Part shown: in pieces, positions 14,874 through 49,394 of the stretch
Layout: every line of letters starts with the position of its first letter
How positions within the stretch are numbered: position 1 is the stretch's first letter
The notes under the pieces: generated by a model
Told to the model about the DNA's origin: nothing
What the model saw: the letters and a program-made list of their open reading frames with translations, nothing else
Databases searched by the model: none
Made by a program: the position numbers and the translations under genes
Assembly: GCF_000818195.1 (NCBI RefSeq)
Contig: NZ_JTHL01000001.1
Span: 6,155,398 to 6,219,397, forward strand
Length of the DNA stretch: 64,000 bases
Source of the DNA: Streptomyces sp. 150FB
GTDB lineage: Bacteria; Actinomycetota; Actinomycetes; Streptomycetales; Streptomycetaceae
Direction: 5' to 3'

Positions 14874-14895
14874 CAATTGATCAAGCGATCAGTTG
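14874..14895 (-). promoter_or_regulatory. Operator-like palindrome in the nitroreductase promoter
   Basis: CAATTGATC-AAGC-GATCAGTTG is an inverted repeat matching at 8 of 9 positions per arm. On the reverse strand it lies directly after the -10 box TAGCCT (14896-14901), whose -35 TTGAAA is at 14920-14925 with an 18-bp spacer. A repressor here would cover the transcription start. Oxidoreductases of this kind are often controlled by MarR, HxlR or TetR proteins; none is encoded nearby. Confidence 0.5.
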
Positions 14896-14951
14896 AGGCT
14901 ACACATATTATTGTTGGAGTTTCAACTAAATGCCCGCTCCGGTGACTCGAC

Positions 14952-15206: not shown

Positions 15207-15286
15207 CTGATCCACCCTGTGAACGCCCAACTACGACACATTACGACTACAACCCTCACCACGGCCGCGCGGCGGCACGCCCGTCC

Positions 15287-16504: not shown

Positions 16505-16621
16505 GGTGGGGAGCGTATCCGTCGGCGGTGACATCACTCGTGGAGTCCGGCGGAAGCGCTGTTCAGGCGGGTGTCCGGGAGGAGTGTCCAGCGCGCGTGT
16601 CCGGCACGGACGGCTTGCGGT

Positions 16622-18085: not shown

Positions 18086-18193
18086 CGAGTCCCTCCGTCA
18101 GTCGCGCCTTCGGTCCCGTACGCCCACGTCCCGGTCGGCCGTGTGGTCCAGTGTCAGCCGGACGGGGGACCGCCCGCCTCTTGTGGGCGGCCT

Positions 18194-30955: not shown

Positions 30956-31069
30956 GGCTGATCACTCCTTTCAGGCATGGGGAAGGAGGCGGGGAAAGGG
31001 GCGGGGAAAGCGGCGGGAAGGGAGCGGGCCGCCGTCGCGTCGACCGCTTCCCCAGAAGAGCACACTCGT

Positions 31070-33768: not shown

Positions 33769-36700
33769 GTGCGTGAAAACAGACAGGTACGGTTCTGTAT
33801 CCTCGGCTCGATCGAATGCTGGGACGGTCAGGAGCGGGTACGGATCGGCGGCCCCGTCCATGAGCGCGTGCTGGTCATGCTGCTCCTCGCCCCGGAGCGT
33901 GTGCTCCCGGTGTCGCGCCTGGTCGACGCCGTGTGGGACGAGGATTCTCCGGCCACCGCGGCCCATCAGGTCCGCAAGGCCGTGGCCGAGTTGCGCCAGC
34001 GCATCCCGGACGGCCGGACGATGATCGTCACCGACGGGCCCGGCTATCGCGCCGTGGTCGACCCGGAGCAGTTGGACCTGAGCCAGTTCACCGAGGGGCT
34101 GCGCCGGGCGCGCGAGGCCGCCGTGGCGGGACGGACCGCCGAGTCGGCGGACTTCCTGCGCGGGGCCCTGGCCCTGTGGCGGGGCCCGATCCTCTCGGGC
34201 AGCGGCGGATCGGTGATTCTGGCCGCCTCCGCCGCACTTGAGGAGCGCAGGCTGACCGCTGTCGAACAGCTCTTCGACCTGCGGCTGGCCGGCGGCGAGA
34301 GCAGCGAACTCGTCGGCGAACTGCGGGAGTTCATCAGCGCACAGCCGCTGCGCGAGACGCTGCGCGGGCAGTTGATGCTGGCGCTGTTCCGCTCCGGCCG
34401 GCAGGCCGAGGCCCTGGAGGAGTACGGCAGGGTCCGCGAACTGCTGGTGGAGGAGCTGGGCATCGGGCCCGGGGACAGTCTCAGGGAACTCCACCAGGGG
34501 ATCCTGCGCAACAGTCCCGAACTCGCCGCCCCGCCCCTCGCCGAGGGCCCGCCGGGACCGCCCCCGCTCGTCCCCGACGAGCCGCGCTCCACTCTGCCGT
34601 ACGACCTGCGGGACTTCACCGGCCGCGAGGAGGAACTGAGCAGGCTGCTCGGGTTCGTCGAGGAGGCGGAGGGATCGGGCCCGCTCATCGTCGCGATCGA
34701 CGGCATGGGGGGCAGCGGCAAGACATCCCTCGCCGTGCGCGCGGCCCACAAGCTCGCCGACCGTTACGGGGACGCGCAGCTCTACCTCGACCTGCGCGGC
34801 TTCACCCCCGGCGAGCAGCCCCTCTCGGCCGCCGCCGCCGCGGAAGCGCTGCTGCGCATGCTGGGCGCGCCGAGCGAGCGGATTCCCGACGAGGCGGAAT
34901 GGCGGATCGCCCTGTGGCGTACGACGATGGCCCGGCAGCGCATGGTGCTGCTGCTGGACAACGCCGTGGACGAGGCCCAGGTGCGGCCCCTGCTCGCCTC
35001 CTCCACCGGCACGCTGGTGCTCGTCACCAGCCGGGCCCTGCTGGTCGATCTGGACGCCGCGCACTGCGTCTCGCTCGGCACCATGCCCCCGCAGGACAGC
35101 GCGGCTCTCGTCGTCGGGGTGCTCGGGGCCGCCCGGGCCGAGGCGGAGCCGGAAGCCGTCGCCGAACTGGCCGAGTTGTGCGGGCACTTACCCCTGGCGC
35201 TGCGCATCGCCGCCGCGCGACTGCGCAAGCGGCCCCGCTGGACCATCCGCTACATGGTCGACCGGCTGCGCGACGACGCGCACCGGCTCGCCGAACTCAG
35301 CGCGGGCGAGCGGAGCGTGGAGGTCACGCTCCGGCTCTCGTACGAGGGCCTCGAGGCGAAGAACCGCGCGGCCTTCCGGCTGCTGGGCCAGCACCCGGGC
35401 GCCGAGCTGGACGTCTACGCCGCCGCAGCGGTGCTCGGCACCGGAGCGAGAGAGGCCGAGGCCGTCCTGGAGTACCTGCTCGACATGCATCTGATGCAGC
35501 AGCACGAGACCGGCCGTTACGCCTTCCACGACCTGGTCCGCAGCTTCGCCCACAGCCTGTCGCGGGTGGCGGTCCCCGAGGGCGAGGGCGGCCCGGCGGG
35601 CGGCGACGAGGAGGCCGCCGGCGCGGTGCGCCGGCTGCTCGACTTCTACCAGGCCGTTACCGACACCGTGTGTGACCTGCTCTTCCCCGGGCGGGCCAGG
35701 ATCGACCGTCCCGCTCCCGGCTTCGCCGCCGAACTGCCCCGGCTGGACAGCTCGGACCAGGCCCGTGACTGGCTCGAAAGGGAGCAGGACGGGCTGCTCG
35801 CCGCGATCTCCCTCGCGTACCGGTGGGGGATGGACCGGCAGGTCGCGTCGCTCGCGGGCAACGTTGTCTTCCAACTGGACGTGCGTGGACGCTTCGAGGA
35901 GTTCCGGGAGCTGGGCCGGACCGCCGTCGCCGCCTCGCGCAGGCTCGGCGACCAGGTCCTGTTGCGGCTGAGCCTGTCCAACCTGGCGGTCGCCGACTGG
36001 AAGCTCGGCCGCTTCGAGGAGGGCATCGAGGCCGCTCAGGAGGCCCACGGCCTGGCCGTGAAGCTCGACGACCAGCGGGGCATGGCCAAGGACACCGGCG
36101 TGCTCGGACTGCTGCTCGCCGCGCTCGGGCGGTTCGACGAGGCGCTGCCGCGCCTGGAGGAATCGATCGCGCTCAAGCGGGAGTTGGGGGCGGCCCGGGC
36201 GGAGGCCGAGTCGCTTACGTTCCTCAGCGGGCTGTACGCGGTGTTCGGGCGCTACGCGGAAGCGGCACAGGCCGCCGCCCGCGCGGTCGAACTGGACCGG
36301 CGCATCGGGGCCGACGACCACGAGATAGCGGCCCTGTCCGACCTGGCGCTCGCCAGGCTCGGTCTGGGTGAGTTCCAGGAGGCGTCCGAAGCGCTCAGCC
36401 GGGCACGGGAGTTGGCCATGGGAGTGGTCTCGCCCGCCAACATGTCGCTCGTACTGGCCCTGTCCGCCGAGGTCCACGACCGGCTCGGCAAACACGCGGA
36501 CGCCATAGACAGCGCCGAAGCGGCCCTGGAGCAAGCCGTGTTGAGCGGCGCGCCGATCCGCGAGGCGGCGGTCGGGAACATCGTCGCGCGGCTGTACCGG
36601 CGCCGCGGCGAGCACGAACGTGCCCTGGAACTGCACCAGCAGGCGCACCGGTCGGCGGCGGGCGCGGGGTACCGGGTGGAGGAGGCGCACGCGCTGGACG

Positions 36701-36819
36701 GCATGGCGGCGGCCCTGGAGGGCCTCGGCGAGACCGTGGCGGCACGGGAGTACCAGGTCAGGGCCGACGAGTCGTTCGACGCGATGGGCATACCGCCCGA
36801 GTGCCGACGGCGGAGCTGA
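33769..36819 (+). CDS. AfsR/SARP-type activator: OmpR-like DBD, BTAD, NB-ARC, TPR
   Basis: A 1016-aa regulator. Residues about 1-90 form the winged HTH (VRFCILGSIECWDG, PVSRLVDAVWDEDSPATAAHQVRKAVAELR). The bacterial transcriptional activation domain covers about 95-245 (LDLSQFTEGLRRARE, QLMLALFRSGRQAEALEEYGRVRELLVEELGIGPG). An NB-ARC/STAND NTPase follows at about 280-560 (Walker A IDGMGGSGKTSLAVRAA; MVLLLDNAVDE; LPLALRIAAARL). TPRs fill the rest. Start GTG 33769 has GGAGGGA 8 nt upstream. SARPs bind direct heptamer repeats at 11-bp spacing; such repeats flank the cluster promoters at 39196-39282 and 42949, so this is the likely pathway activator. Confidence 0.93.
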   Translation: MRENRQVRFCILGSIECWDGQERVRIGGPVHERVLVMLLLAPERVLPVSRLVDAVWDEDSPATAAHQVRKAVAELRQRIPDGRTMIVTDGPGYRAVVDPEQLDLSQFTEGLRRAREAAVAGRTAESADFLRGALALWRGPILSGSGGSVILAASAALEERRLTAVEQLFDLRLAGGESSELVGELREFISAQPLRETLRGQLMLALFRSGRQAEALEEYGRVRELLVEELGIGPGDSLRELHQGILRNSPELAAPPLAEGPPGPPPLVPDEPRSTLPYDLRDFTGREEELSRLLGFVEEAEGSGPLIVAIDGMGGSGKTSLAVRAAHKLADRYGDAQLYLDLRGFTPGEQPLSAAAAAEALLRMLGAPSERIPDEAEWRIALWRTTMARQRMVLLLDNAVDEAQVRPLLASSTGTLVLVTSRALLVDLDAAHCVSLGTMPPQDSAALVVGVLGAARAEAEPEAVAELAELCGHLPLALRIAAARLRKRPRWTIRYMVDRLRDDAHRLAELSAGERSVEVTLRLSYEGLEAKNRAAFRLLGQHPGAELDVYAAAAVLGTGAREAEAVLEYLLDMHLMQQHETGRYAFHDLVRSFAHSLSRVAVPEGEGGPAGGDEEAAGAVRRLLDFYQAVTDTVCDLLFPGRARIDRPAPGFAAELPRLDSSDQARDWLEREQDGLLAAISLAYRWGMDRQVASLAGNVVFQLDVRGRFEEFRELGRTAVAASRRLGDQVLLRLSLSNLAVADWKLGRFEEGIEAAQEAHGLAVKLDDQRGMAKDTGVLGLLLAALGRFDEALPRLEESIALKRELGAARAEAESLTFLSGLYAVFGRYAEAAQAAARAVELDRRIGADDHEIAALSDLALARLGLGEFQEASEALSRARELAMGVVSPANMSLVLALSAEVHDRLGKHADAIDSAEAALEQAVLSGAPIREAAVGNIVARLYRRRGEHERALELHQQAHRSAAGAGYRVEEAHALDGMAAALEGLGETVAAREYQVRADESFDAMGIPPECRRRS

Positions 36820-36952: not shown

Positions 36953-37153
36953 TCAGAGGTTGGGACCTTCGTCGGACTGGGGGGTGACCGGCGTCCCGTT
37001 CGGGCCTTCGTCCGAGGCGAGCACCATGTGACTCGTGGCGGAGACCGGTGCGGCGACCGCGGCGACAAGCCCGGTCGAGACGGCGGTTCCGATCCCGAGG
37101 GTGAGGACGGCCGCCGCGAGGATCTCTGCCGTGCGAACCACGATGCTGCTCAT
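36953..37153 (-). CDS. Small exported peptide with SDEGPN repeats
   Basis: A 66-aa precursor: basic/polar N-terminus, hydrophobic segment ILAAAVLTLGIGTAVSTGLVAAVAAPVSA (signal peptide or anchor), then a tail of about 25 residues in which SDEGPN occurs twice (ASDEGPNGTPVTP, QSDEGPNL). ATG 37153 has GGCAGG as ribosome site, but that site is inside a 10-bp hairpin with 37190-37199, so translation may be controlled. It lies between the AfsR-like regulator and the biosynthetic genes. It has no recognised homolog; a signalling or structural peptide is speculation. Confidence 0.65.
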   Translation of the reverse strand: MSSIVVRTAEILAAAVLTLGIGTAVSTGLVAAVAAPVSATSHMVLASDEGPNGTPVTPQSDEGPNL

Positions 37154-37199
37154 TGATGCCTGCCTTGTGTGTGGGGTTTTCGTTGCTGACAGGCATCAA
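37153..37199 (-). promoter_or_regulatory. RBS-sequestering hairpin in the leader of the small-peptide mRNA
   Basis: On the reverse strand TTGATGCCTG (37199-37190) pairs perfectly with CAGGCATCAA (37162-37153). The second arm covers the ribosome site and the A of the start codon; the loop is 27 nt. Such a fold would block initiation until opened. Confidence 0.6.
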
Positions 37200-37450
37200 G
37201 TTCTCGGAACCCGCTCCCGTTGAGTTCCGCTTTCGCTACCCCCTGCTACCACTCCGGGGGGAACGGGGCGGGAAGCAGTGAGGTGCCGCCCATAGGCGCA
37301 GGTCAGAGGGGGTAACGGCGGTGCAGTGCGGGGGAGTTGTCCCGTCGGGCAGCGCCTGGCCACGGTCCGGCACATTCCACCCGCATGTGCGCGTACCGCG
37401 TGGGACGTTCCTGACGCCGGCCCGCCGTCAGCCTGTCCCTGAGCCCGCCC
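37154..37450. other. Gap between the small-peptide gene and the ATP-grasp gene
   Basis: About 300 bp. It holds the leader hairpin of the peptide gene and its presumed promoter. No further gene or strong terminator is seen at the end of the ATP-grasp gene. Confidence 0.5.
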
Positions 37451-38788
37451 TCAGCCCTTCTCGGCGCCGAGCAGCCGCAGCGTCGAGGCGACACGGAGCG
37501 ACGCCTCGGCGGGAGAGCCCGCGGTGAGCACCACATGCCCCTGACCGTCCCCGTCCGCACCGGCGTCCGGGACGGGATCGTTCCCGCGCGGGTGCGGCAG
37601 CCGTACGTCCCGCACTCCGGGCAGGCCGGTGATCTCCTTCAGCCTGCACGCGGGCAGCTCCTCCCCGGGCGACAGCCGGAAGGGCACCGCTGACGCGTAC
37701 CGGTGCGCCACCGGCGGCTCCACCGGCGCCCCGGTCAGCGCGCGGAGGAGTTCGGCCTCCGGGGCGAAGCCGGTGGCCAGTTCGATCAGCCGGCCGATCG
37801 GTTCGTCCGCCTGCCGTGCCTGCGAGCGGACGATGCGGGGCCCGTCGGCCGTCAGGACGGCCACGGTGTACGCGAACCCGAACTCGTACCCGGCGAGGCC
37901 GAGCAGCCCGGTGGTCGCCGCGCGAATCTCCGCCTCGTCCCCCGCCGCCAGCGGCGCCGGGAAGAGGTGGTCGTGCCCGGCCGGTCCCGCGCGGTGCAGC
38001 GCGGTGATGCCGAGCACCCGGTGCATGCCGTCCACCGTCAGGGTCTCCACCCCGTACTCGGGACCGTCCAGGAACGTCTCGACGAGGTAGGGCCCGGGAT
38101 GGTCCGACAGTCGCTCCCGCACGCGTCCAGTGTCGATGTCCGGGCGTTCCCGTACGAGAACGGCCCGCGGCCCCGCGGCCCCCGCCCCGAGCGGCCTGAC
38201 CATCGCGGGCATGCCCACCCGCTCGACAGCCGTGGGCAGTTCGTCGAACGACTGCGCACAGACGGATGTGACGTACGAGTGCTCGCTCCCGTTGAGCAGG
38301 CCGCGCATCGCGGACGGGTCGCCGAGCAGGCGGACGGACTCGGCCGGGTTGGGGGACAGCTCCAGTCGCTCCGCCGTCTCCAGCAGCGCGGGCAGGGTGC
38401 TCACCTCGCCGAAGGCCAGCAGCCACCCGATGTGGTGGTCACGCGCCGTCTCGGCGATCAGGTCGCACAGCGCCCGCGCGTCGCCGAAGTCGGCCCGGAG
38501 CGGCACGGGGGCCGGACCCGGGGACGGACCCGGCGGCCCGACCTGACCCGTGAGCCCTTCCGCGCCCGGATCCGCACCCGCGGACACACCCGCGGGCCCG
38601 CTCGGGCCCGCGGGTGTGCCCCAACCGGTCGGCTCCGCACCGGCCTCCCTCGAATCGCTCACCGTCCAGACGGCGTAGCCGGCCGACACGGCCTCCTGTA
38701 CGAGCCGGGGCGACGGCGCGACCAGCAGCAGACGCCTCTGGTCGGGCCCGTCGGGCGCCGGCCCGCTACAGCCGTCCGGTGGCGTCAT
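37451..38788 (-). CDS. Divergent ATP-grasp protein
   Basis: A 445-aa cytosolic protein with ATP-grasp layout: N-terminal Rossmann-like part (RRLLLVAPSPRLVQEAVSAGYAVWTV), central GMPAMVRPLGAGAAGPRAVLV, YLVETFLDGPEYGVETLTVDG and a C-terminal GYEFGFAYTVAVLTADGPRIVRSQARQADEPIGRLIELATG. Where amino-acid ligases usually have Glu and the E-x-N-x-R metal motif, this protein reads AYTVAV and IVRSQARQ, so Mg ligands may be altered. Residues 52-95 are a Gly/Pro/Ala-rich insert. ATG 38788 overlaps the tautomerase stop by 4 nt (ATGA), so translation is coupled. It may ligate or cyclise the cluster product; activity is uncertain. Confidence 0.75.
   Translation of the reverse strand: MTPPDGCSGPAPDGPDQRRLLLVAPSPRLVQEAVSAGYAVWTVSDSREAGAEPTGWGTPAGPSGPAGVSAGADPGAEGLTGQVGPPGPSPGPAPVPLRADFGDARALCDLIAETARDHHIGWLLAFGEVSTLPALLETAERLELSPNPAESVRLLGDPSAMRGLLNGSEHSYVTSVCAQSFDELPTAVERVGMPAMVRPLGAGAAGPRAVLVRERPDIDTGRVRERLSDHPGPYLVETFLDGPEYGVETLTVDGMHRVLGITALHRAGPAGHDHLFPAPLAAGDEAEIRAATTGLLGLAGYEFGFAYTVAVLTADGPRIVRSQARQADEPIGRLIELATGFAPEAELLRALTGAPVEPPVAHRYASAVPFRLSPGEELPACRLKEITGLPGVRDVRLPHPRGNDPVPDAGADGDGQGHVVLTAGSPAEASLRVASTLRLLGAEKG
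38585..38618 (-). repeat. 15-bp hairpin inside the ATP-grasp coding region
   Basis: Arms 38585-38599 and 38604-38618 are perfectly complementary with a 4-nt loop. It encodes part of the Gly/Pro/Ala insert (TPAGPSGPAGVSAG). Confidence 0.7.
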
Positions 38789-39096
38789 GGCGTCGCCCCG
38801 GAGGCCGCCGTGCTCGCCGCGCCCGCCACCGCTGCCGCGAAGGCGTCCCCCGGACCGTCCGCGTTCTCCACGGTTTCCGGGTGCTCGGTGTCCTCCGGAG
38901 AACTTCCCGAGACAAGCGTGTCGGCCATGACGCCGCCTTTACCCCAGTACCCGGGATCCACATCTCTCACGATGACCGTGACGGCCTCCTGCGGGCAACC
39001 GGCAATCCGAGCGACGGACGAGGTCAATTCCGCGACGAGCTCGGCGCGTTGACTACGACCGTTCCCTTTCCACCAGTCCACGGTGACAACAGGCAT
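38785..39096 (-). CDS. 4-oxalocrotonate tautomerase-like protein
   Basis: A 103-aa tautomerase-superfamily protein. After Met removal it begins with the catalytic Pro (PVVTVDWWKGNGRSQRAELVAELTSSVARIAGCPQEAVTVIVRDVDPGYWGKGG), matching the 4-OT pattern including the Arg before the second strand and the WG-GG end. The last 40 residues are an Ala/Ser/Glu-rich tail not found in 62-aa 4-OTs. AAGGAG is 6 nt before ATG 39096. It is the first gene of a two-gene operon with the ATP-grasp gene, divergent from the serine acetyltransferase operon. Confidence 0.88.
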   Translation of the reverse strand: MPVVTVDWWKGNGRSQRAELVAELTSSVARIAGCPQEAVTVIVRDVDPGYWGKGGVMADTLVSGSSPEDTEHPETVENADGPGDAFAAAVAGAASTAASGATP

Positions 39097-39195
39097 GACG
39101 GTCTCCTTCCCTACGTATACGGGAGCGGGCCCCACGTCACGACATTTCAGTCGCGCGCGACGGTCCCGCCGATCCAGCCGAGCCTGGGCGGTGCC

Positions 39196-39224
39196 GTTCC
39201 CGTATCCCTCCCGCCGAGTTCCCG
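39196..39224 (-). promoter_or_regulatory. SARP-type heptamer repeats facing the tautomerase/ATP-grasp operon
   Basis: Three heptamers start at 39196 (GTTCCCG), 39207 (CCTCCCG) and 39218 (GTTCCCG), exactly 11 bp apart. On the reverse strand they read CGGGAAC, CGGGAGG, CGGGAAC, i.e. oriented toward 39096. SARP activators bind such direct repeats on one face of the helix. Confidence 0.75.
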
Positions 39225-39253
39225 TTCCGTGCCCCCCGATGCGTACGGGACCG

Positions 39254-39282
39254 GAGGAACCAGCCGGGAAGCAATCGGGAAC
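39254..39282 (+). promoter_or_regulatory. SARP-type heptamer repeats facing the serine acetyltransferase operon
   Basis: Three heptamers start at 39254 (GAGGAAC), 39265 (CGGGAAG) and 39276 (CGGGAAC), exactly 11 bp apart and oriented toward 39353. No textbook -10 is obvious 8 bp downstream; the region 39290-39312 is the candidate. Confidence 0.75.
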
Positions 39283-39352
39283 CGGCGCGGGCACGCTTTC
39301 TCCCAGTAACCGAACCCCAACACTCGGTCGACGAAGTCCCCAGGAGCGTCCG

Positions 39353-40090
39353 ATGAGAATCACGACGACGACGGAGCCGCAGCCCGCACCCGACAGGCAG
39401 CACGCCCCGCAGCCGCGGCAGACGCCGCACGGGCAGCCGCCCACGCAGGACGCCGCGGCCCGCGTACTCACTCCGCGTCCGGAGTCCGGACCCCTCGGCA
39501 TCCTGCGGATGATGCGCGAGGACCTGCACGTGGTGGTGGAGCGCGACCCCTCTGTACGGGGCGTGTTGGAAGCCGCCCTGCACCCCGCGCTCACCGCGCT
39601 GTGGACCCACCGCGTCGCCCACCGGCTGCACCGCCGCGGGCTGCGCATCACGGCGAAGGTGCTGTCGCGGTGGGCCCGCCGGGTGACGTCCACGGAAATC
39701 CACCCGGGCGCCGTGCTCGGCCGCCGGGTGTTCATCGACCACGGCGCCGCCGTCGTCATCGGCGAGACCTGCACCGTCGGCGACGACGTGACGATCTACC
39801 ACCAGGTGACGCTGGGCGCCGTGGGCTGGTGGAGCGACAACGAACGGCCCGAGGGCGCACGCCGCCACCCGGTGGTGGGCAAGGGCGTCATCCTCGGCAC
39901 CAACGCGACGGTCCTCGGCCCGGTGACCGTCGGAGACCACGCGGTCATCGGCGCGCAGGCGCTGGTGAACAAGGACGTGCCCGCGGGCGCCCGGGTGCTC
40001 GCGCCCACCGCCGTGGTCAAGCATGTCGGGCGCCGCCCCGAACTGATGGAGGACGTCTTCGCGACGATCGCCTCGGCCGGCTCCTGGTGA
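39353..40090 (+). CDS. Serine O-acetyltransferase-like enzyme
   Basis: A 245-aa left-handed beta-helix acyltransferase of the CysE/EpsC type, making O-acetyl-L-serine. A disordered Gln/Pro-rich tail of about 40 residues precedes the catalytic core: MMREDLHVVVERDPSVRG, STEIHPGAVLGRRVFIDHGAAVVIGETCTVGDDVTIYHQVTLG, then hexapeptide repeats to KDVPAGARVLAP. The acceptor loop carries an insert WWSDNERPEGARRHP. AGGAG is 7 nt before ATG 39353. It is followed 83 bp later by a cysteine-synthase-like gene, so the pair supplies an activated serine and a beta-substitution step. Confidence 0.9.
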   Translation: MRITTTTEPQPAPDRQHAPQPRQTPHGQPPTQDAAARVLTPRPESGPLGILRMMREDLHVVVERDPSVRGVLEAALHPALTALWTHRVAHRLHRRGLRITAKVLSRWARRVTSTEIHPGAVLGRRVFIDHGAAVVIGETCTVGDDVTIYHQVTLGAVGWWSDNERPEGARRHPVVGKGVILGTNATVLGPVTVGDHAVIGAQALVNKDVPAGARVLAPTAVVKHVGRRPELMEDVFATIASAGSW

Positions 40091-40173
40091 CCCCGGCCGC
40101 CACCCGCCACCCCGCTCCCACCGCTGCCCCGCCCCCTGCCCGCGCCGCTGCCCCGACCCGGAGGACGAGACTC

Positions 40174-41154
40174 ATGCAGACCGTCGAACACGAACGCACC
40201 TACGCCCCCACCACCCCCACCGCACTGGTCGTCGCCGACAGCATCGAGGACCTGGTCGGCTCGACTCCTTTGATACGGCTACGACTTGACGGCCAGGCCG
40301 CCGGCGCGCAGGTGCTGGCCAAGCTGGAGTCGGCGAACCCGATGTCCAGCAGCAAGGACCGGGCGGCCCTGGAGATGATGCGGGCCGCCGAGCAGCGCGG
40401 GCAGTTGGTGCCCGGCACCGGCACGGTGGTCGAGGCCACCTCCGGCAACACCGGCATCTCCCTCGCCGCCTTCGCCGCCTCCCGCGGCTACCACTGTGTG
40501 ATCGTGCTGCCGGACAACGCGACCCCCGAACGGGTGCGGCTGCTCAAGGCGTTCGGCGCCGAGGTGGTCCAGACCCCGAGCGAGCGGGGCTACCCGGGCG
40601 CGATCGAGAAGGCGCAGGAGATCCACGCGGCCACGCCCGGCTCCTGGTTCCCCTGCCAGCACGAGAACCAGGACAACGTACGGGCCCATTACGAGACCAC
40701 CGGACCCGAGATCCACGCCGCGGTGCACGCCACGGGCCGCCGCGTCGACACACTGGTGTGCACGGTCGGTACGGGCGGCACGCTCACCGGGATCGCCAAG
40801 TACCTGAAGGAGATGGACCCTTCGGTGCGGGTGATCGCGGTCGAGCCGGAGAAGTCCCCGGTGCTCTCGCGAGGCGTGGCGGGACAGCACCGTATCCCCG
40901 GTCTCAACGGCGGGTTCGTCGCGATCACCACCGATGTCTCGCTCATCGACGAGGTGTTCACCGTCTCCGACGAGGACGCCCTGGAGATGGCCCGCCATCT
41001 GGCGCGCAGCCAGGGGCTGTTCGTCGGGGTCTCCTCCGGCGCCGCCGCCTTCGCGAGCGCGGCGGTGGCGGCCAGGCCGGACCACGCGGGCAGCACCGTC
41101 GTCACCGTGCTGCCCGACACCGGCGAGCGCTACCTCAGCATGTGGGGGGCGTGA
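40174..41154 (+). CDS. Cysteine synthase-family PLP enzyme (beta-substitution)
   Basis: A 326-aa fold-type II PLP enzyme. The PLP Lys is in NPMSSSKDRAALEMM, the substrate loop is TSGNTGISLA, the phosphate-binding loop is GTGGTLTGIAKYLKE, and SSGAAAFA is the PLP N1 region. It resembles O-acetylserine sulfhydrylase and the related beta-substituting enzymes (for example SbnA, DcsD). In the context of a dedicated serine acetyltransferase and no sulfur genes, the nucleophile is probably not sulfide. GGAGG lies 9 nt before ATG 40174. Confidence 0.9.
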   Translation: MQTVEHERTYAPTTPTALVVADSIEDLVGSTPLIRLRLDGQAAGAQVLAKLESANPMSSSKDRAALEMMRAAEQRGQLVPGTGTVVEATSGNTGISLAAFAASRGYHCVIVLPDNATPERVRLLKAFGAEVVQTPSERGYPGAIEKAQEIHAATPGSWFPCQHENQDNVRAHYETTGPEIHAAVHATGRRVDTLVCTVGTGGTLTGIAKYLKEMDPSVRVIAVEPEKSPVLSRGVAGQHRIPGLNGGFVAITTDVSLIDEVFTVSDEDALEMARHLARSQGLFVGVSSGAAAFASAAVAARPDHAGSTVVTVLPDTGERYLSMWGA

Positions 41155-41187: not shown

Positions 41188-41682
41188 ATGAGCCTGGCCG
41201 CTTTCCGCGCGTTCGGTGACGCCGTCAAGGTCCAGATAGGCGAGACCACCACCACCCGGTTCATCACACTCGCCGACACCACCGACGGCCGGCTCGGACT
41301 CTTCCACCATTCCATGCTGCCCGGTGCGACCGGCGCCGCCCCGCATTACCACACACGTATCTCCGAATCCTTCTACATCATTTCCGGCGAAGTGACACTG
41401 CACGACGGAAAAGGCTGGCGCACCGCGACGGCCGGGGATTTCCTGCACGTTCCTGAGAACGCCGTGCACGGATTCCGCAACGACAGTGACAAGACGGCGG
41501 AGATGCTCATCATCTTCACCCCTGCCGAGAACAGGGAGGAGTACTTCGAAGGGCTCGCCCGGCTGGTGGCGAACGGCAACAGGCCCACCAGGGAAGAAAT
41601 GGTCGCGCTCATGGAGAAGTACGACCAGTTCGAGATCGACGAATCAGAAATCCACCACCACCACACATCATCGGGAGTGTAG
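41188..41682 (+). CDS. Single-domain cupin
   Basis: A 164-aa small beta-barrel metalloprotein. Motif 1 is APHYHTRISESFYIISGEVTLHDG (two His and Glu), motif 2 is AGDFLHVPENAVHGFRN (third His), so the 3-His-1-Glu metal site is complete. It resembles quercetin-dioxygenase-like cupins. It lies between the cysteine-synthase-like gene and the exporter (34 bp and 4 bp gaps). It could be an oxygenase or isomerase on the pathway; the reaction is not predictable. Confidence 0.85.
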   Translation: MSLAAFRAFGDAVKVQIGETTTTRFITLADTTDGRLGLFHHSMLPGATGAAPHYHTRISESFYIISGEVTLHDGKGWRTATAGDFLHVPENAVHGFRNDSDKTAEMLIIFTPAENREEYFEGLARLVANGNRPTREEMVALMEKYDQFEIDESEIHHHHTSSGV

Positions 41683-41686: not shown

Positions 41687-42652
41687 ATGAATACTGCAAG
41701 CTGGGGACGATTCGGCCTGCTGGCCGCACTGTGGGGATGCAGCTTCGCCTTCATCAAGGTGTCGTTGGACTCCTTCGCACCTCTTCAACTGGTCTTCGGC
41801 CGCCTGCTCGTGGGCGCCCTCGTCGTCCTCGCCATCATCGCCGCCAAGCGCATCGCGCTGCCGAAGCGGAGCATGTGGGGACACATCGTGGTGGCGTCGG
41901 TGTTCGGCAACGTGATCCCGTTCACGCTGTTCGCCATCGGTGAGCAGCACACCACAGCGAGCACCGCCGGCGTGATCCAGGGCGCGACCCCGCTCGTCAC
42001 CATGGGGCTCGCCACCTTCGCCATCGCCAGCGAGAAGCCGACGAGGCGCAAGGTCATCGGCCTGATCGCGGGCTTCATCGGCCTGATCGTCGTCGTCGGA
42101 CCCTGGCGCTCCTCGGGCTTCGGCTCGCTCGGCGGCCAACTGGCCTGCGTGGGCGCCGCCGCAAGCTACGCGGTGGGTTTCGTGTACGTGCGCCGGTTCA
42201 TCGCCCCGTACAAGATCCCCTCGCTCGCCGTGACCGCGGGGCAGTTGACCTCGGCGACCGTGATCACCGCGCTGATCACGTCCTTCACGACCGGCTGGAA
42301 CCCGACCGGGGACGTCACCGTCAAGCCGCTGCTCGCCCTGCTGGTGCTCGGCGCGGCCTCGACCGGTATCGCCTTCGCCCTGATGAACCGGCTGATCGCG
42401 GACGTCGGTCCGACCACGGCCTCCGGCGTGAACTACCTGGTCCCGATCTTCTCCGTGATCGTCGGCGCGGTGGCGCTGGCCGAGCCGGTGAGCTGGAACG
42501 TGCCGGTGGGCGGCGCCGTCGTCATCGCCGCGCTAGCCCTGGCGGAGGGCCGTATCTCGACCCTCGTCGGACGGACCTCAAAGGCCCCGGCTGCCGCACC
42601 GGCCGCGGCGCCGGTGGCGTCAGCCGGCGTACCGCAGAAGGCCTGCCCGTAA
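41687..42652 (+). CDS. EamA/DMT-family exporter
   Basis: A 321-aa membrane protein with ten helices in two EamA repeats (LLAALWGCSFAFIKVSLDSFAPLQLVFGRLLVGALVVL; VNYLVPIFSVIVGAVALAEPVSWNVPVGGAVVIAALALAEGR). Members export amino acids and metabolites. It starts 4 bp after the cupin stop, so it is cotranscribed, and ends at a strong nested hairpin. It is the natural candidate for product efflux and self-resistance. The C-terminal tail is Ala/Pro-rich. Confidence 0.92.
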   Translation: MNTASWGRFGLLAALWGCSFAFIKVSLDSFAPLQLVFGRLLVGALVVLAIIAAKRIALPKRSMWGHIVVASVFGNVIPFTLFAIGEQHTTASTAGVIQGATPLVTMGLATFAIASEKPTRRKVIGLIAGFIGLIVVVGPWRSSGFGSLGGQLACVGAAASYAVGFVYVRRFIAPYKIPSLAVTAGQLTSATVITALITSFTTGWNPTGDVTVKPLLALLVLGAASTGIAFALMNRLIADVGPTTASGVNYLVPIFSVIVGAVALAEPVSWNVPVGGAVVIAALALAEGRISTLVGRTSKAPAAAPAAAPVASAGVPQKACP

Positions 42653-42790: not shown

Positions 42791-42948
42791 CGTGCGTACG
42801 CCCGTATGTACGGGTCACGCGCCCGGGTCCTGCCCGCGCCCGTCGCCCCCCGTACCGCGCCCGTACCCGACGGGTCCCGTACCGACGGCACCCGGTCCGC
42901 ACGCGTTCCCGTCTGCCTCCCCTGACCCACGAACGCGCAGTACCGGCG

Positions 42949-42966
42949 CGGGAGTCGACCGGGAAC
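42949..42966 (+). promoter_or_regulatory. SARP-type heptamer pair before the second operon
   Basis: CGGGAGT (42949) and CGGGAAC (42960) are direct repeats at 11-bp spacing, the same word as in the 39196-39282 promoter region. A reverse-oriented GTTCCCG/CCTCCCC pair at 42905/42916 has the same spacing. Operon start is ATG 43033. Confidence 0.6.
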
Positions 42967-43032
42967 GCCCCGACGGAGTCTGTAGAAGCCAAAGCAGAGA
43001 CGCCCCCGGCCACACAGGGAGTAGCCATCATC

Positions 43033-43845
43033 ATGCAGACCTCCACCTTCCTGGGCACCGCCCGGATCATCCACCGGTCCGAGTTCGTCTTCGAGCCGGT
43101 GCTCGACCGGCCCGACGCCCTCACCACCCTCGCCACCCCGGTCAGTCCTGCCGCCGGCGCCACCCACGTCACCCTGCACGTCGTACGGATCGCCGCGGGC
43201 GAGTCCTTCACCCCCGAGGCGAGCGTCGCCGAGGAGAACACCGTCGTCGTCTTCGACGGTTCGGGCACCGCCCGCGTCGGCACCGAGACCCGCGCGGTCG
43301 GCCGCGCCGACGGCGTCTACGCACCCACCGGCCGTGTGCTCACCCTGAGCGCCGACAACGAGGGCCTGACCGCATACGTGTGGCGGGCACCGCTGGCCGA
43401 GGGACGCGTCCTGGGCTCCGACCCCGCGCTGTTCTCCTCCCTGTGGAACGAGACCACCCGGCTGCAGGGCTTCGCCGGAGCCGGGAAGGGCGACGGCGAG
43501 ACGGAGTTGGCGGCGATGAACTTCGTCTTCTGGCCGGGGACCGGTAGCTGCCAGCTCTGCCTGCACTGCGGCATCCAGCAGCCGGGCCAGACCTTCAACG
43601 TCCACCTGCACCCGGACAGCGACGAGGCGTTCATCGCCTTCGAGGGAATCGGTCAGATGTACCTCGGCGACCACTGGGTCGACGTCGAAGCGGGCGACGT
43701 GCTGTACGCGTCCGCCGGCGTCCTGCACGGCGCGCGCAACCCGTACACCGGCCCCGACGCACGGCGCTTCGTCACGTGCGGCGGACCCACCCCCTACGAC
43801 CCGGCGCTCTACGCCGCCGCGGGCGTCTCCTCCGAGGTCAGGTAA
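43033..43845 (+). CDS. Bicupin protein
   Basis: A 270-aa protein with two cupin barrels. The second is clearly metal-binding: NVHLHPDSDEAFIAFEGIGQMYLG (two His, Glu) and AGDVLYASAGVLHGARNP (third His). The first has lost most ligands (VVRIAAGESFTPEASVAEENTVVVFDG). Two-cupin layouts occur in ureidoglycine aminohydrolase-like and dioxygenase-like enzymes; no closer assignment is possible. AGGGAG lies 10-11 nt before ATG 43033. It is the first gene of a six-gene operon with gaps or overlaps of only a few nt. Confidence 0.8.
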   Translation: MQTSTFLGTARIIHRSEFVFEPVLDRPDALTTLATPVSPAAGATHVTLHVVRIAAGESFTPEASVAEENTVVVFDGSGTARVGTETRAVGRADGVYAPTGRVLTLSADNEGLTAYVWRAPLAEGRVLGSDPALFSSLWNETTRLQGFAGAGKGDGETELAAMNFVFWPGTGSCQLCLHCGIQQPGQTFNVHLHPDSDEAFIAFEGIGQMYLGDHWVDVEAGDVLYASAGVLHGARNPYTGPDARRFVTCGGPTPYDPALYAAAGVSSEVR

Positions 43846-43850: not shown

Positions 43851-45716
43851 ATGTGCCGCATATACGGATCCTTCAACACCCACTCCAGCGACGAGGAACT
43901 GAACTCCGTCGCCACGCTGCTGCACCACGGCGGCCCGGACGCCCAGTCCTTCACCCGCGAGCCCGGCTGGGCACTGGGCAACAACCGCCTCTCGATCATG
44001 GACCCCGAGGGCGGGGCGCAGCCCTACCACCACGGCCGGATCACCGTCGTCTTCAACGGTGAGATCTACAACCACGAGGAGCTGCGCGCCAGGCTCGCCC
44101 GGCGCGGCTTCCACTTCGCCGACCGCTGCGACGGCTCGATCCTGCCGGCCCTGTACCTCACGTACGGCGACCGGTTCACCGAGCAGTTGGACGGCATGTA
44201 CTCGGTCGCCGTGCTCGACCTGCGGACGAGCCCCCGCCTGGTGCTGGCCACGGACGACTCCGGCATGAAGCCGCTCTACTACAGTTGGGACGCGCCCAGC
44301 GGCCGTCTCCACTTCGCCTCCGAGATCCCCGCGCTGCTGGGCTTCAGCGAAGTGACCGCGGACGAGGACGAGTTCGGGCTCGACAGCTACCTCACCTCCA
44401 AGACGCCGTTCGGCGACCGCACCATGTTCCGCGGCATCAACGTGCTGCCCCCGGCCGCCACTGCGGTCGTCGGCCGCCACGAGCCGCTGCGGATCACCAC
44501 CCGCCCGATGGGCTACACCGGCGGTCCCGGCCTCGATGTGTCGCGCACCCTGCGCGACGCGGGCAGCGACCTGGGCTCACTGCTCGCCCACGAGGTCTCC
44601 CGGCTGCTGATCGCGGACGCCCCGGTCGCCGCCATCACCTCGGGCGGACTCGACTCCAGCCTGGTCACCGCGCTCGCCGCCCGCGCCGTGAGCGCCATGT
44701 CCGGACCGAGCGCACTGCACACCTTCAACATCGCCTACACCGGCAACTGGCCAGGTGACGAACGGGCGTTCGCGGCCGAGGTCGCCGCAGCAGTCGGGAC
44801 CACGCACCACCAGGTCGAGGTCGACCCCGCGACCTTCCCCGAGCTGCTCTCGGACGTCGTCTGGCACCTGGGACAGCCCAACGCCGACCCCATCACGCTC
44901 AGCACCTTCTCCCTGTTCCGCGCCGTGCGCGACGCCGGGTTCAAGGTCGCGCTCACCGGCGACGCCGCCGACGAACTCTTCGGCGGGTACTCGCGGATGC
45001 AGGCGGCCGTGGAAGCCAACGAGTGCTCCGACTGGGCCCAGACGTACCTCGACCACCTCGCCGCCGTGCCCCGCTCCCTGCGCGAGCGGCTCTACACCAG
45101 CGACTACGCCGCCGGCGTCCGCGCGCACGGCCCCGGGCTGCCCTCCGGGCTCACCGAGACCCTCGCGCACGGCGAGGGCACCCGGCTCCAGCGCATCTGC
45201 GCCATCGAGCAGCAGTACCGGCTGCCCTCGTACCACCTGCGGCGCGTCGACCACCTGTCGATGGCCAGCTCGGTGGAGGCCAGGCTCCCCTTCTGCCAGC
45301 CCGCCGTCGTGCGGTACGCCGCGACCCTGCCCGACTGGCACCGCATCATGCCGGGCGGCGGTGTCAAGCGCGCGCTCTACCGGGCCGCCGAGGGGCTCGT
45401 CCCCAGCAGCGTCCTCAACCGCCCCAAGCAGCCCTTCACCCTGCCCATCACCGCCATGCTCACCCCCGGGCAGCGGCTGTGGAGCATGGCCCGCGACGTC
45501 CTCTCGCCCGCCACGCTGCGGGCCGACGGCCGGATCAGGCCCGACACCGTGGAATCCCTCTTCGCCGAGCAGGCCGAGCGGCCGAGCGACAGCGGCTCCC
45601 TCGCCCTGTGGTCCCTGATGTCCCATCAGATGTGGCGCCGGCAGTTCTTCACCCCGACGTCCGTACGCGGGCTCGCATCGCAGTCGACACCCGTCCTTCT
45701 GGAGGCCGCCGTATGA
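43851..45716 (+). CDS. Asparagine synthetase-like glutamine amidotransferase
   Basis: A 621-aa AsnB-type protein. The N-terminal Ntn glutaminase starts M-C-R-I-Y-G with Cys2 as nucleophile, followed by NNRLSIMDPEGGAQPY and FNGEIYNHEEL. The C-terminal synthetase has the PP-loop AAITSGGLDSSLVTALAAR and LTGDAADELFGGYSRM. All catalytic parts appear intact, so it can adenylate a carboxylate and amidate it. In a cluster it may make a pathway amide rather than asparagine. ATG 43851 is 5 nt after the bicupin stop; the stop overlaps the next gene by 4 nt. Confidence 0.9.
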   Translation: MCRIYGSFNTHSSDEELNSVATLLHHGGPDAQSFTREPGWALGNNRLSIMDPEGGAQPYHHGRITVVFNGEIYNHEELRARLARRGFHFADRCDGSILPALYLTYGDRFTEQLDGMYSVAVLDLRTSPRLVLATDDSGMKPLYYSWDAPSGRLHFASEIPALLGFSEVTADEDEFGLDSYLTSKTPFGDRTMFRGINVLPPAATAVVGRHEPLRITTRPMGYTGGPGLDVSRTLRDAGSDLGSLLAHEVSRLLIADAPVAAITSGGLDSSLVTALAARAVSAMSGPSALHTFNIAYTGNWPGDERAFAAEVAAAVGTTHHQVEVDPATFPELLSDVVWHLGQPNADPITLSTFSLFRAVRDAGFKVALTGDAADELFGGYSRMQAAVEANECSDWAQTYLDHLAAVPRSLRERLYTSDYAAGVRAHGPGLPSGLTETLAHGEGTRLQRICAIEQQYRLPSYHLRRVDHLSMASSVEARLPFCQPAVVRYAATLPDWHRIMPGGGVKRALYRAAEGLVPSSVLNRPKQPFTLPITAMLTPGQRLWSMARDVLSPATLRADGRIRPDTVESLFAEQAERPSDSGSLALWSLMSHQMWRRQFFTPTSVRGLASQSTPVLLEAAV

Positions 45717-46822
45717 TCGCCACCTTCGCCAGGTCGCACGGAGCCCCGTGCCCCACCGTCGTACTCGACGGCCGCACGCTGCCCGAAGCGGATCCCGAGC
45801 TCCTCGACGCACTGGCCGGACTGCGCTCCGACATGAGCGAGCACGGCGCCGGCGACATCCTCAAGAACGCCATCATCTGGCCTTCCAAACATCCGCTCTT
45901 CGACCTCGACTACCGCTTCGTGCAGTCCCTGCCGCGCGACTTCGACAGCTTCGACCTGCGCGGTTCCTGCGGCCACTCGATCCTGGCCGCGGTGGAGGTG
46001 GCCGCGAGGACCGGCATGATCCAGCCGCTCATCCCCGGCTGCCGGGTCCGGGTCAACGTACTCAACAACGGCGACAACGTGGTCTGCGAGACCGAGGAGA
46101 CCTCCGACGGCGGCACCCGCTTCACCGCGCACTTCCTGTGCTCCCCGCCCCGCCCGATCGCCGAGCTGCTGACCACCGGCGAACCCGTCTCCCTCATCCC
46201 GTTCGAGGGCGGGACCGTGCCGGTGTCGCTGGTCACCATGGGCAACTCGTACATCTTCGTGTCCGGCGCCGAGTTGGGCGTGACCGGCACCGAGGAACTG
46301 TTCACCGACGACCCCGACCTCTTCGACCGGATGCTCGGGCTGCGCCTCGCGGTGTGCGAGGAGTACGGCTGGGACCCCTCGGGGGCCTTCCCGAAGATCG
46401 CCGCGCTGCTGCCGGAGAGCGACGGTGTCCTCGCCGTACGGGCCATCTCGGTGCCCTCGTGGCACCCGACCGTCGCGATGACCGGGGCCACCTGCCTCGC
46501 CACCGCTGTCGGCATCGAGGGCACCGTGCCCTGGGCGCTGGCCGCCGAGGCCGGCCACCAGGAGGGCCTCCTGTCACTGCGTACCGCCGGCGGCCCGATG
46601 CGGGTCTCCGCCTACGTCACCGGGGAGGGCGACGGCCGACGGCTGGCCTGGGTCTCGGTGGCCGAGAAGCAGGTCGACTACCGCGGCAAGCTCCCGCTGC
46701 CGCACCAGTCCGTCAGTACCTCCGCCGCTCTCTCCACCTCAGCCGCTCTCAGCACCTCCGCCGCCGTCTCCACCTCCGCCGCTCTCTCCGAGGAGTCCTC
46801 ATGGCTTCCGCTGACAGCCTGA
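45713..46822 (+). CDS. PrpF/DapF-fold isomerase-like protein
   Basis: A 369-aa protein of the diaminopimelate-epimerase fold, closest in layout to PrpF/4-oxalomesaconate tautomerase. The first catalytic Cys region is RGSCGHSILAAVEVAART; the second conserved region is VAMTGATCLATAVGIEGT. Start ATG 45713 overlaps the preceding stop (ATGA). The last 35 residues are a repeat tail STSAAL x4 encoded by four 18-bp units. The gene overlaps the next by 22 nt. It could isomerise a double bond or racemise the alpha carbon of an amino acid. Confidence 0.82.
   Translation: MIATFARSHGAPCPTVVLDGRTLPEADPELLDALAGLRSDMSEHGAGDILKNAIIWPSKHPLFDLDYRFVQSLPRDFDSFDLRGSCGHSILAAVEVAARTGMIQPLIPGCRVRVNVLNNGDNVVCETEETSDGGTRFTAHFLCSPPRPIAELLTTGEPVSLIPFEGGTVPVSLVTMGNSYIFVSGAELGVTGTEELFTDDPDLFDRMLGLRLAVCEEYGWDPSGAFPKIAALLPESDGVLAVRAISVPSWHPTVAMTGATCLATAVGIEGTVPWALAAEAGHQEGLLSLRTAGGPMRVSAYVTGEGDGRRLAWVSVAEKQVDYRGKLPLPHQSVSTSAALSTSAALSTSAAVSTSAALSEESSWLPLTA
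46715..46786 (+). repeat. Four tandem 18-bp units in the PrpF-like gene
   Basis: Units start at 46715, 46733, 46751 and 46769 and encode STSAAL, STSAAL, STSAAV, STSAAL. The tract lies at the C-terminus, just before the overlap with the next gene. Confidence 0.85.
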
Positions 46823-47976
46823 CGCGCACGCGCCAGGACCTCGATCTCACGCTGCCCGACGACCTGACGGCCGTCGCCACCCTCGACCCCGCCGTCCGCG
46901 ACCGCCTCGCGGCCTGCGCCGAGGCCGCCGACCGCAGCGGCGAACCGGACCGCGACGCCGTCGCCGTCATGCGGGACAGCCGGCTGCTCGGGCTCGCCGT
47001 ACCGTACGAGTACGGAGGGGCGGGAGGCGACGCCGTATCGCTCAACGCGTACATCGAACAGGTCGCAGCGGCCAACGCGTCCGCCGCCATCATGCTCTTC
47101 CAGCACTACGCGGTGAGCAGCCGCATCGTCGAGTACGGCACCCCGGAACAGCGCCGCGAACTGCTGCCGAAACTGGCGGCCGGCGAGTGGCTCGCCGCCT
47201 CGGCCTGGAGTGAGACCGGCGCGGGGGCCGACAAGAAGAAGCTGTCCACCACGGCGCGCCGGACGCCCGACGGCGGCTGGCTGCTGGACGGCGCCAAGTC
47301 CTTCACCACCAGCGCCGGACTCGCCAACATCTATCTGGTGCTCGCCCAGAGCGACGAACTCGACCCGGCGGCCGGGGACACCGGCTACGGCGCGGCGGGC
47401 CAGACGTTCTTCCTCGTCCGGGGCGACAACCCCGGGCTGCTGCCCGACACCTCGATGCGGCTGGCCGGCATGCGCGGCTCGGCCACCGGCTTCGTCTCCG
47501 TACGGGACTGCCTGGTCCCCGACACCGCCCGGCTGGGCGAGCAGGGCATCGCCGCCTCGATCATCGCGGGGGTACGGGAGAGCGGCGCCACCCTCGGCGC
47601 GGTCGCCGTCGGTGTCGCGCAGGCGGCGCTCGACGCCGCACACCAGCACGCCCAGCGGCGCGGGCTCCTCGGCCACCAGGCCGTACGCCACCGCCTGGTC
47701 GACCTCGGCACCCAGGTCGAGGCCGCGCGCGGGCTTGTGGAGCGCGCCGGCCGGCGCAGCTCCGCCGACCCGGGCATGACGACGCTGCACTCCAAGCTCT
47801 TCGCCGCCTCCGCCGCCGACCACATCATCGCCGACATCGAGCGGATGCTCGGCTCGGCGGGGTACGTCGAATCGCACGCGATCAACCGGTACGGCCGCGA
47901 CGCACGCGCCGTGGCTCTGATGGGACCGACCAACGACCTCTGCAAGGAACTGGTGAGCCTGCCGTGGAACCGCTGA
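46801..47976 (+). CDS. Acyl-CoA dehydrogenase-like flavoprotein, possible monooxygenase
   Basis: A 391-aa flavoprotein with the ACAD fold: helical N-domain, AASAWSETGAGADKKKLSTTARRTPDGGWLLDGAKSFTTSA (flavin-binding beta domain) and a C-terminal helical domain ending RMLGSAGYVESHAINRYGRDARAVALMGPTNDL. Where dehydrogenases read YEGTNE with the catalytic Glu, this one reads LMGPTND, so the base is missing at that position. With a flavin reductase gene in the same operon it may be a two-component monooxygenase, for instance an N-hydroxylase. GAGGAG is 5 nt before ATG 46801, inside the upstream gene. Confidence 0.8.
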   Translation: MASADSLTRTRQDLDLTLPDDLTAVATLDPAVRDRLAACAEAADRSGEPDRDAVAVMRDSRLLGLAVPYEYGGAGGDAVSLNAYIEQVAAANASAAIMLFQHYAVSSRIVEYGTPEQRRELLPKLAAGEWLAASAWSETGAGADKKKLSTTARRTPDGGWLLDGAKSFTTSAGLANIYLVLAQSDELDPAAGDTGYGAAGQTFFLVRGDNPGLLPDTSMRLAGMRGSATGFVSVRDCLVPDTARLGEQGIAASIIAGVRESGATLGAVAVGVAQAALDAAHQHAQRRGLLGHQAVRHRLVDLGTQVEAARGLVERAGRRSSADPGMTTLHSKLFAASAADHIIADIERMLGSAGYVESHAINRYGRDARAVALMGPTNDLCKELVSLPWNR

Positions 47977-49394
47977 CATCCCAGCACGCCGACCTCGTTG
48001 TCGAGGGCGGCCGACTGATCACACCCACCGGCGTGCACGACGGCGCCGTCGTCATCCGCAACGGCCGCATCGACGCCCTCCTCGACGCCGGAGCCCCGCT
48101 GCCCGACGGGCCCCGGCTGAGCGCCCACGGCCGCTACGTACTGCCCGGTCTGATCGACTCGCACGTGCACTTCCGCACTCCTGGCATGGAGTACAAGGAG
48201 ACCTGGGAGCACGGCAGCCGCGCCGCCCTCGCCGGCGGGGTGACCAGCGTGATCGACATGCCCAACACCCGCCCGCCGTCGCTGGACGCGCGGTCCGTAC
48301 AGGACAAGGCCGCGCTGATCACCGGGCACTCGCGGGTCGACTACCGCTTCCACATGGGCGCCGACCCCGACCACCCCGAGGTCCTCGCCGACCTCGACCC
48401 GGACATCGCGACCTCCGCCAAGATCTTCATGGCCGGGCACCACACCGCACCCGTGGTGTTCCGCGAGGCGCACCAGTTGGAGGCGGCCTTCGCCGCAGCC
48501 GCGCACGGCGGCATCCGGCTCGTGCTGCACGCCGAGGACCAGCATGTGTTCGACCTGCTCGACGCGGGACACGACGAGCCGGGCTCGTACGGCGAGTACG
48601 AGCCGCACCGCCCGCGCACCGGCGGCATCGTGGCGGTGGCCAACGTGGTCCAGTTGGTACGCCGATTCGGCACGAAGACGCATGTGCTGCACGTGTCCTC
48701 GGCCGAGGAGACAGACCTGCTGGTGGCCGCCGCAGCCGAGGGGCTGCCCATCAGCTTCGAAGTCACCGGGCACCACCTGTCCTTCACGGACGCCGACACC
48801 GCGGCCCGCGGCCCGCGCACCCGGCTGTCGCCCGCCATCCGAGGCACCCGCGACCAGGACCGCCTGTGGCGGGCCGTGCTCGAAGGGGAGGCGTCCACCC
48901 TCGGCAGCGACCACGCGCCGCACACCGTCGAGGAGAAGAACCGGCCCCCCTCCGACGCCCCGCCAGGGCTGCCCGGGGTGCAGGAGCTGGCCACCGCCGT
49001 CTGGACGGGCATGCTCGCGCGCGGCGTCCGGCCCGACGACGCCGCCGCGCACCTGGCCCGGCTGATGGGCGAGGGCCCGGCCCGGCTCTTCCAACTGCCG
49101 GGCAAGGGACGCCTGGTGGTCGGCGCCGACGCCGATCTGGCGCTGCTCGACCCGGCCCGGCGCTGGCAGTTCTCGGCGAACCACGTCGAGTCGCTGTGCG
49201 GCTGGTCCGCGTACGAGGGCTGGACGTTCACCGGCAGGTTCACGACCGTGGTCACCTCGGGCCGGGTGGCCTGGGACCTGCACGAGGGAGTGTCCGGCGA
49301 ACCCACGGGCCGCTGGCTGCCGGCGGCGATACCCCCGAGCCCGGTCCCCGTCGCCCCGCTCGCCTCACCCGGACGGATGGAGGTGACCCGATGA
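47964..49394 (+). CDS. Dihydroorotase/allantoinase-like cyclic amidohydrolase
   Basis: A 476-aa TIM-barrel amidohydrolase. Metal ligands: DSHVHFRTPG (HxH), TSAKIFMAGHH with the Lys that is usually carbamylated, VLHAEDQH, THVLHVSSAEE and GSDHAPHTVEEK (Asp). This pattern fits dihydroorotases, allantoinases and hydantoinases, which open or close cyclic ureides and imides. GTG 47964 lies inside the previous gene (13-nt overlap). A pathway role in forming or opening a ring is likely; primary pyrimidine metabolism is less likely given the context. Confidence 0.87.
   Translation: MEPLTSQHADLVVEGGRLITPTGVHDGAVVIRNGRIDALLDAGAPLPDGPRLSAHGRYVLPGLIDSHVHFRTPGMEYKETWEHGSRAALAGGVTSVIDMPNTRPPSLDARSVQDKAALITGHSRVDYRFHMGADPDHPEVLADLDPDIATSAKIFMAGHHTAPVVFREAHQLEAAFAAAAHGGIRLVLHAEDQHVFDLLDAGHDEPGSYGEYEPHRPRTGGIVAVANVVQLVRRFGTKTHVLHVSSAEETDLLVAAAAEGLPISFEVTGHHLSFTDADTAARGPRTRLSPAIRGTRDQDRLWRAVLEGEASTLGSDHAPHTVEEKNRPPSDAPPGLPGVQELATAVWTGMLARGVRPDDAAAHLARLMGEGPARLFQLPGKGRLVVGADADLALLDPARRWQFSANHVESLCGWSAYEGWTFTGRFTTVVTSGRVAWDLHEGVSGEPTGRWLPAAIPPSPVPVAPLASPGRMEVTR

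Follow-up and report, generated by a model that had tools for sequence, protein, structure and literature searches.

The operators described for SARP regulators are built from direct repeats 11 or 22 bp apart, the 3′-most of which lies 8 bp from the −10 element (PMC10936776). For AfsR, T88 and R92 have been identified as the base-reading residues, the −10 element of afsS is poor (CACTGT), and sigma region 4 sits on two SARP protomers (PMC10936776), and the AfsR box has been given as CGTT(T/C)ATCGNN (PMC10972967). SARP sites are also known upstream of vlmJ and vlmA-vlmH (PMC10972967), and PimR binding requires at least two heptamers (PMC5930380). The word CGGGAAC, with which this work is concerned, occurs four times in the accessible text of the PimR paper, each time within a primer (PMC5930380).

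Here we describe a promoter region in a 64-kb stretch of DNA, which was analysed as a whole and is called the window below. We consider it very likely that positions 39181-39297 form a divergent double promoter with two SARP operators, most likely bound by the large SARP encoded at 33769-36819, which would drive both adjoining operons and probably also the promoters of a cupin gene (cupB) and of a small peptide gene.

Results

The regulator gene (33769-36819, forward strand) encodes 1016 aa from GTG 33769, or 1035 aa from ATG 33712, and its product has the domain set of a large SARP, namely an OmpR-type DNA-binding domain, BTAD, NB-ARC, and TPR (Trans_reg_C, BTAD, NB-ARC, and TPR_12, all above cut-off). 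Among the fourteen cluster genes checked, it is the only one with a TTA codon, and such a codon can signal bldA dependence. The leftward operon, on the reverse strand, encodes a 4-oxalocrotonate-tautomerase-like protein (38785-39096; Pfam Tautomerase, matched on a longer ORF) and an ATP-grasp, L-amino-acid-ligase-like protein (37451-38788; PDB 3vot, E 2.8e-7; PRK02186 at 5e-22 and LAL_C2, both below cut-off). On the forward strand follow a serine O-acetyltransferase (cysE/epsC-like, 39353-40090, EpsC model above cut-off), a cysteine-synthase-like PLP enzyme (40087-41154), a cupin (41188-41682), an EamA-family exporter (41687-42652), the cupin protein cupB (43033-43845), an asparagine-synthase-like amidotransferase (43851-45716), a PrpF-family isomerase (45713-46822), an acyl-CoA-dehydrogenase-like flavoenzyme (46801-47976), a dihydroorotase/allantoinase-like amidohydrolase (47964-49394), and a flavin reductase (49391-49936). 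The literature search returned no cluster matching this gene set; the siderochelin pathway, subject of the one paper listed, is polyketide-based.

The sequence-only reading had placed six heptamers with exact 11-bp steps between two divergently oriented operons, with a BTAD gene about 2.4 kb away, and a direct read-out of the sequence bore out the repeats at the claimed coordinates as well as the distance and the gene orientation. The left array (39196-39224, reverse strand), the candidate operator of the tautomerase/ligase operon, reads CGGGAAC (39218-39224), CGGGAGG (39207-39213), and CGGGAAC (39196-39202). The right array (39254-39282, forward strand), the candidate operator of the cysE operon, reads GAGGAAC (39254-39260), CGGGAAG (39265-39271), and CGGGAAC (39276-39282). 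Both were recovered by the window scan and by a weight matrix. They differ from CGGGAAC by totals of 2 (left) and 3 (right) mismatches, and in both the heptamer step is exactly 11 bp, in keeping with SARP operators, whose heptamers recur directly every 11 or 22 bp.

Three-copy arrays at 11 bp with at most four mismatches occur three times in the window, all inside the 39196-39282 promoter; the third match (39235-39207, reverse strand) is the left array overlapped in a shifted register, and the rest of the 64 kb yielded no comparable array. On its own, CGGGAAC shows no enrichment (21 occurrences in the window against 16.28 expected, equalled in 15 of 100 shuffles), and because the excess is not significant, the bare-word count was given no weight. 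Rarity thus lies in the phased array and not in the single word. The weight matrix was trained on 35 heptamers from five relatives with the window excluded, and it scored the two arrays at 24.5 and 23.3, against a best of 17.45 in 40 simulated sequences of 64 kb. The next-highest score in the window (18.3) came from a phased repeat at 30992-31020 between MFS and TetR genes; it exceeds the simulated best, and it was dropped as G-rich and lacking the −10 hexamer.

A −10-like hexamer was found by motif match 9 bp past each array, CAGGCT on the left (39181-39186, reverse strand) and CACGCT on the right (39292-39297, forward strand). The hexamer had been left out of the weight matrix. Across 21 loci (the window and 20 others, including all five matrix-training relatives, two arrays each), 41 of 42 arrays have NANNNT exactly 9 bp past the last heptamer, and the remaining 12 offsets from 3 to 15 bp gave no case in these arrays. 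The lone exception is the left side of L073, where the top-scoring register has no hexamer and the hexamer-bearing array scores 19.6. The distance is 9 bp when counted from the 7-bp word and 8 bp when counted from the 8-bp contact unit as in PMC10936776, and on the second count the spacing equals that of published SARP operators, the −10 here being a motif match. A TTGACA-like −35 element 15-19 bp 5′ of either hexamer was looked for in both window promoters, and at most 3 of 6 positions matched. If the hexamer is taken as −12 to −7, the middle heptamer falls at about −39 to −33, where it would overlap the −35 region.

Conservation was followed in two sets of relatives. A tautomerase search in 295 genomes of the genus gave a match in 53, and among loci from the best 30 of these 53, the same divergent layout was seen within 1.5-kb flanks at L004, L005, L008, L009, and L010; in wider stretches, L045 and L046 carry both arrays in a promoter that diverges towards the ligase and cysE. 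A scan of genomes with the PrpF-family protein used 80 of 86 relatives, which split by identity into 22 close (at least 60%) and 58 distant (at most 52%) loci. The sequence-only reading had said beforehand that close homologues lacking the repeats would refute it, and what we observed is that both arrays are kept at a score of at least 16 in 19 of 19 divergent promoters that were in view (counting the window, with the tautomerase or the ligase leftward), counts that are not independent because some loci look like near-duplicates (L082/L083) and the matrix-training relatives L072, L074, and L080 are included. Array and hexamer were present together at 21 of 22 close loci, the exception (L079) beginning inside the cluster, versus none of the 58 distant loci (1.12 Mb). 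A regulator homologue was seen at 18 of the close loci, the remaining four being cut by contig ends. No close homologue was in view at the 58 distant loci, where 3 had matches of just 31-32%; at least 9.5 kb was in view on both sides for 41 of the 58, and a regulator farther away would escape. The array and the regulator were thus observed to be present or absent together, and since the distant clusters differ beyond the regulator, their joint absence may partly reflect ancestry. Two distant clusters have a phased repeat 5′ of the tautomerase gene (L048/L145, scoring 17.2, and L050, scoring 12.7), and these were not counted because the hexamer is absent at 9 bp. Across 20 close loci, the ATP-grasp ligase is 33-48% identical, compared with 54-85% for the other cluster enzymes, as if its substrate varied between species.

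The window has 29 bp between its two arrays, and 16 of the other 20 loci have 30-38 bp. This closeness would fit a single composite operator, at which the operons compete for activator or polymerase and are not co-activated. However, each array is followed at 9 bp by a separate hexamer, and the gap is wider in four loci (47 bp in L076; 59-61 bp in L074, L075, and L092) with the layout unchanged, so we regard a composite operator as very improbable. Even less credible is the view that the repeats are chance in GC-rich DNA or a conserved DNA element other than an operator. The lack of enrichment of the single word agrees with it, but the 11-bp phasing, the fixed 9 bp to the hexamer, and the restriction to the cluster within the genome speak against it, as does the retention of both arrays in all 19 promoters despite gaps of 29 to 61 bp and differing spacer bases. 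Two separate SARP operators remain our preferred reading.

That restriction was observed directly in the 9.8-Mb genome of the strain, where a pattern search allowing three mismatches gave 20 sites, versus 4 for the reversed pattern. NANNNT follows at 9 bp in only 3 of the 20 sites, every one of them in the cluster, namely the left and right arrays and a third array at 42938-42966 (forward strand; CAGTACC, CGGGAGT, CGGGAAC; score 12.0). The latter precedes cupB (ATG 43033), with a −10-like GAGTCT by motif match at 42976-42981 (forward strand). A fourth, weak array (37213-37241, reverse strand; GGGTAGC, GCGGAAC, CGGGAGC; score 8.2) precedes the small peptide gene, with a −10-like GAACTT by motif match at 37198-37203 (reverse strand); it is too divergent for the genome pattern search and was identified from its position and its counterparts in relatives. 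Taken alone, the scores of 12.0 and 8.2 are within the noise of the matrix. In relatives, with lenient cut-offs, the cupB array scores at least 10 at 18 of 23 loci (none at L081 and L091; weaker at L072, L076, and L086), and the peptide-gene array scores at least 8 at 16 of 20, one of the four failures being a spurious reverse ORF. The regulator's reach thus seems to be wider than the divergent promoter, as the cupB and peptide-gene promoters also bear candidate arrays.

The regulator is related to solved AfsR chains, but it scores 518.5 bits with the NCBIfam AfsR model, below the cut-off of 1430, and by alignment the base-reading T88 and R92 of AfsR are K and E, which sets it apart from AfsR orthologues. 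A regulator search in 121 genomes gave 30 loci, of which 22 at 45% identity or more form group A; the controls (n = 28) are the other 8 loci (37-44%) and the next 20 listed places (35-40%), and one 42% match (in G004) was placed in neither. Array and hexamer were found outside the regulator gene at 18 of 22 group A loci versus 0 of 28 controls. The four without a qualifying array are the window locus, L153, L155 (contig ends), and L168; the flanks of the window regulator locus and of L153 hold just the weaker peptide-type array, below cut-off. At the position of T88, all 22 group A regulators have K and 20 of 28 controls keep T; at that of R92, group A has D, E, A, or K and 18 of 28 controls keep R. 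Three controls (L174, L176, and L179; 39-43% identity) have K at 88, yet their flanks are without an array. The window regulator is AfsR-like and not AfsR, with a different predicted recognition helix and a different candidate heptamer.

These comparisons bear on whether the arrays are bound by a different SARP encoded in the genome, for example the global AfsR, in which case the cluster would answer a global signal. There are 19 BTAD matches in the genome, some being fragments of a single gene, so that another SARP could bind, and small and large SARPs have most DNA-contact residues in common (PMC10936776). Nevertheless, the published AfsR box, CGTT(T/C)ATCGNN, is unlike CGGGAAC (PMC10972967), the control loci, 18 of 28 with the R92 of AfsR, show no such array, and the arrays travel with the clade of the local regulator into other gene contexts. 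AfsR as the binder is thus disfavoured by the heptamer word, the recognition helix, and the control loci, and we hold binding by another SARP to be improbable; the local regulator is the preferred candidate. The contexts of group A vary, as in L192 with polyketide and peptide synthetase genes or L189 with a PLP enzyme and a luciferase-like monooxygenase, and among 16 group A places with wider flanks, a relative of the window ligase lies nearby in 13. Across L156-L173 and L182-L197, the regulator clade has as neighbours an ATP-grasp-like gene, a D/E/N-x-GP peptide gene, or both, in varied contexts and with the same box. In L186, L187, and L188, a second, small SARP-like gene lies beside the large one and has the same array in its promoter, which suggests a cascade.

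The small peptide gene (36953-37153, reverse strand) adjoins the regulator gene and encodes 66 aa, with an N-terminal hydrophobic (signal-like) segment and two SDEGPN motifs; it is a putative propeptide and matched no family in Pfam or NCBIfam. In 17 of 22 close clusters, an ORF between the regulator (where in view) and the ligase combines a hydrophobic N-terminal segment with 2 to 17 EGPN-type repeats, at least two being required. The gene was seen in the window, L033, L035, L045, L046, L072, L088, L150, and others, and its copy number of 2 to 17 varies across species. The peptide of L089 has a single motif of HGPGS type, and no such ORF was found at L079, L087, L090, and L091, the sequence being too short at L079 and L087. 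A small peptide candidate was also found in 17 of 22 group A loci by a lenient scan that matched 9 of 28 controls as well (7 with ORFs of at least 190 aa; 2 shorter, L203 and L217), and because of this leniency, and with no control locus having an array, the array count alone serves as the control result. The group A types include ADDKGPT, AENQGPT, ADNQGPA, ADNHGPG, and ADNKGPG, with poor fits at L160 (ADERPPG) and L161 (ADDRDPF); across the clade peptides, the D/E/N-x-GP motif occurs in one to 17 copies. At L166, L167, and L169, the array precedes a ligase-like gene, with no peptide in view.

The repeat peptide may be a RiPP precursor. However, the 58 distant loci yielded no ORF with at least two EGPN-type repeats, though much of the enzyme set is common to them, and this absence suggests that the peptide goes with the regulator and not with the pathway. 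RRNPP peptides leave the cell, are processed, and return through an oligopeptide permease. An Opp-like transporter beside the module was seen at 1 of 16 wider loci and at 0 of 22 close loci, and an oligopeptide importer as a fixed partner thus gains no support. The one case is L190, where an oligopeptide-type ABC transporter (12477-18130; binding protein family 5, permease- and ATPase-like ORFs) adjoins the module.

Discussion

The claim of the sequence-only reading that SARP-type operators face both ways is supported by the spacing, the placement of the −10-like hexamers, the conservation, and the co-occurrence with the regulator. From the sequence we infer that the arrays are bound, that binding activates, and that the binder is the local large SARP. 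On each side, three CGGGAAC-type heptamers, one per helical turn, end 9 bp before a poor putative −10 element, apparently with no good −35 element. The SARP domains of the 33769-36819 product would sit side by side on one face of the DNA and, by analogy with AfsR, would replace the −35 contact for sigma region 4. RNA polymerase would then be recruited leftward for the tautomerase and the ligase and rightward for cysE and the downstream genes, and the same regulator would probably fire the cupB promoter and that of the small peptide gene.

The resulting rule for an operator, namely three CGGGAAC-type words in 11-bp steps and NANNNT 9 bp past the last of them, ties a clade of large SARPs to its candidate targets from sequence and predicts four promoters in one cluster. 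The recurrence of a signal-like repeat-peptide gene under the same box may also bear on what TPR-bearing large SARPs sense. Because the peptide gene carries the candidate box of the SARP itself, the peptide could be a multi-copy pheromone. Tentatively, and as a rather unlikely proposal for now, the AfsR-like SARP clade and the small exported D/E/N-x-GP peptide may form a self-reinforcing module, in which the peptide is sensed by the NB-ARC-TPR part, or is first modified by the ATP-grasp neighbour, and which would act as a peptide-based population switch for Streptomyces clusters. Among the papers listed in the literature search, judged by titles and the beginnings of abstracts, none describes a module of SARP, repeat peptide, and ATP-grasp protein.

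Judged from the genes alone, the locus resembles RRNPP systems in that the regulator, here one with a TPR domain, has next to it a small gene for an exported-looking, putative propeptide; unlike here, RRNPP signalling has been reported for Firmicutes (PMC10075063). The VlmI sites (vlmJ and vlmA-vlmH) are likewise three-heptamer SARP sites, upstream of two transcription units of one cluster, a likeness in layout (PMC10972967). The operator of PimR, a SARP-LAL protein, also has three heptamers, with 4-bp spacers, but its word is different (CGGCAAG), the C-terminal half of PimR is of LuxR-LAL type and not NB-ARC-TPR, and its operator is clear of the −35 box (PMC5930380). The AfsR/afsS system of Streptomyces coelicolor likewise has a large SARP with nucleotide-binding and TPR domains, 11-bp direct repeats just 5′ of a poor −10 element (CACTGT there, CACGCT and CAGGCT here), and, next to the regulator, a small gene with a box of this kind (PMC10936776). 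It differs in its heptamer and recognition helix, and it has two repeats where our locus has three, the predicted target here being a biosynthetic cluster.
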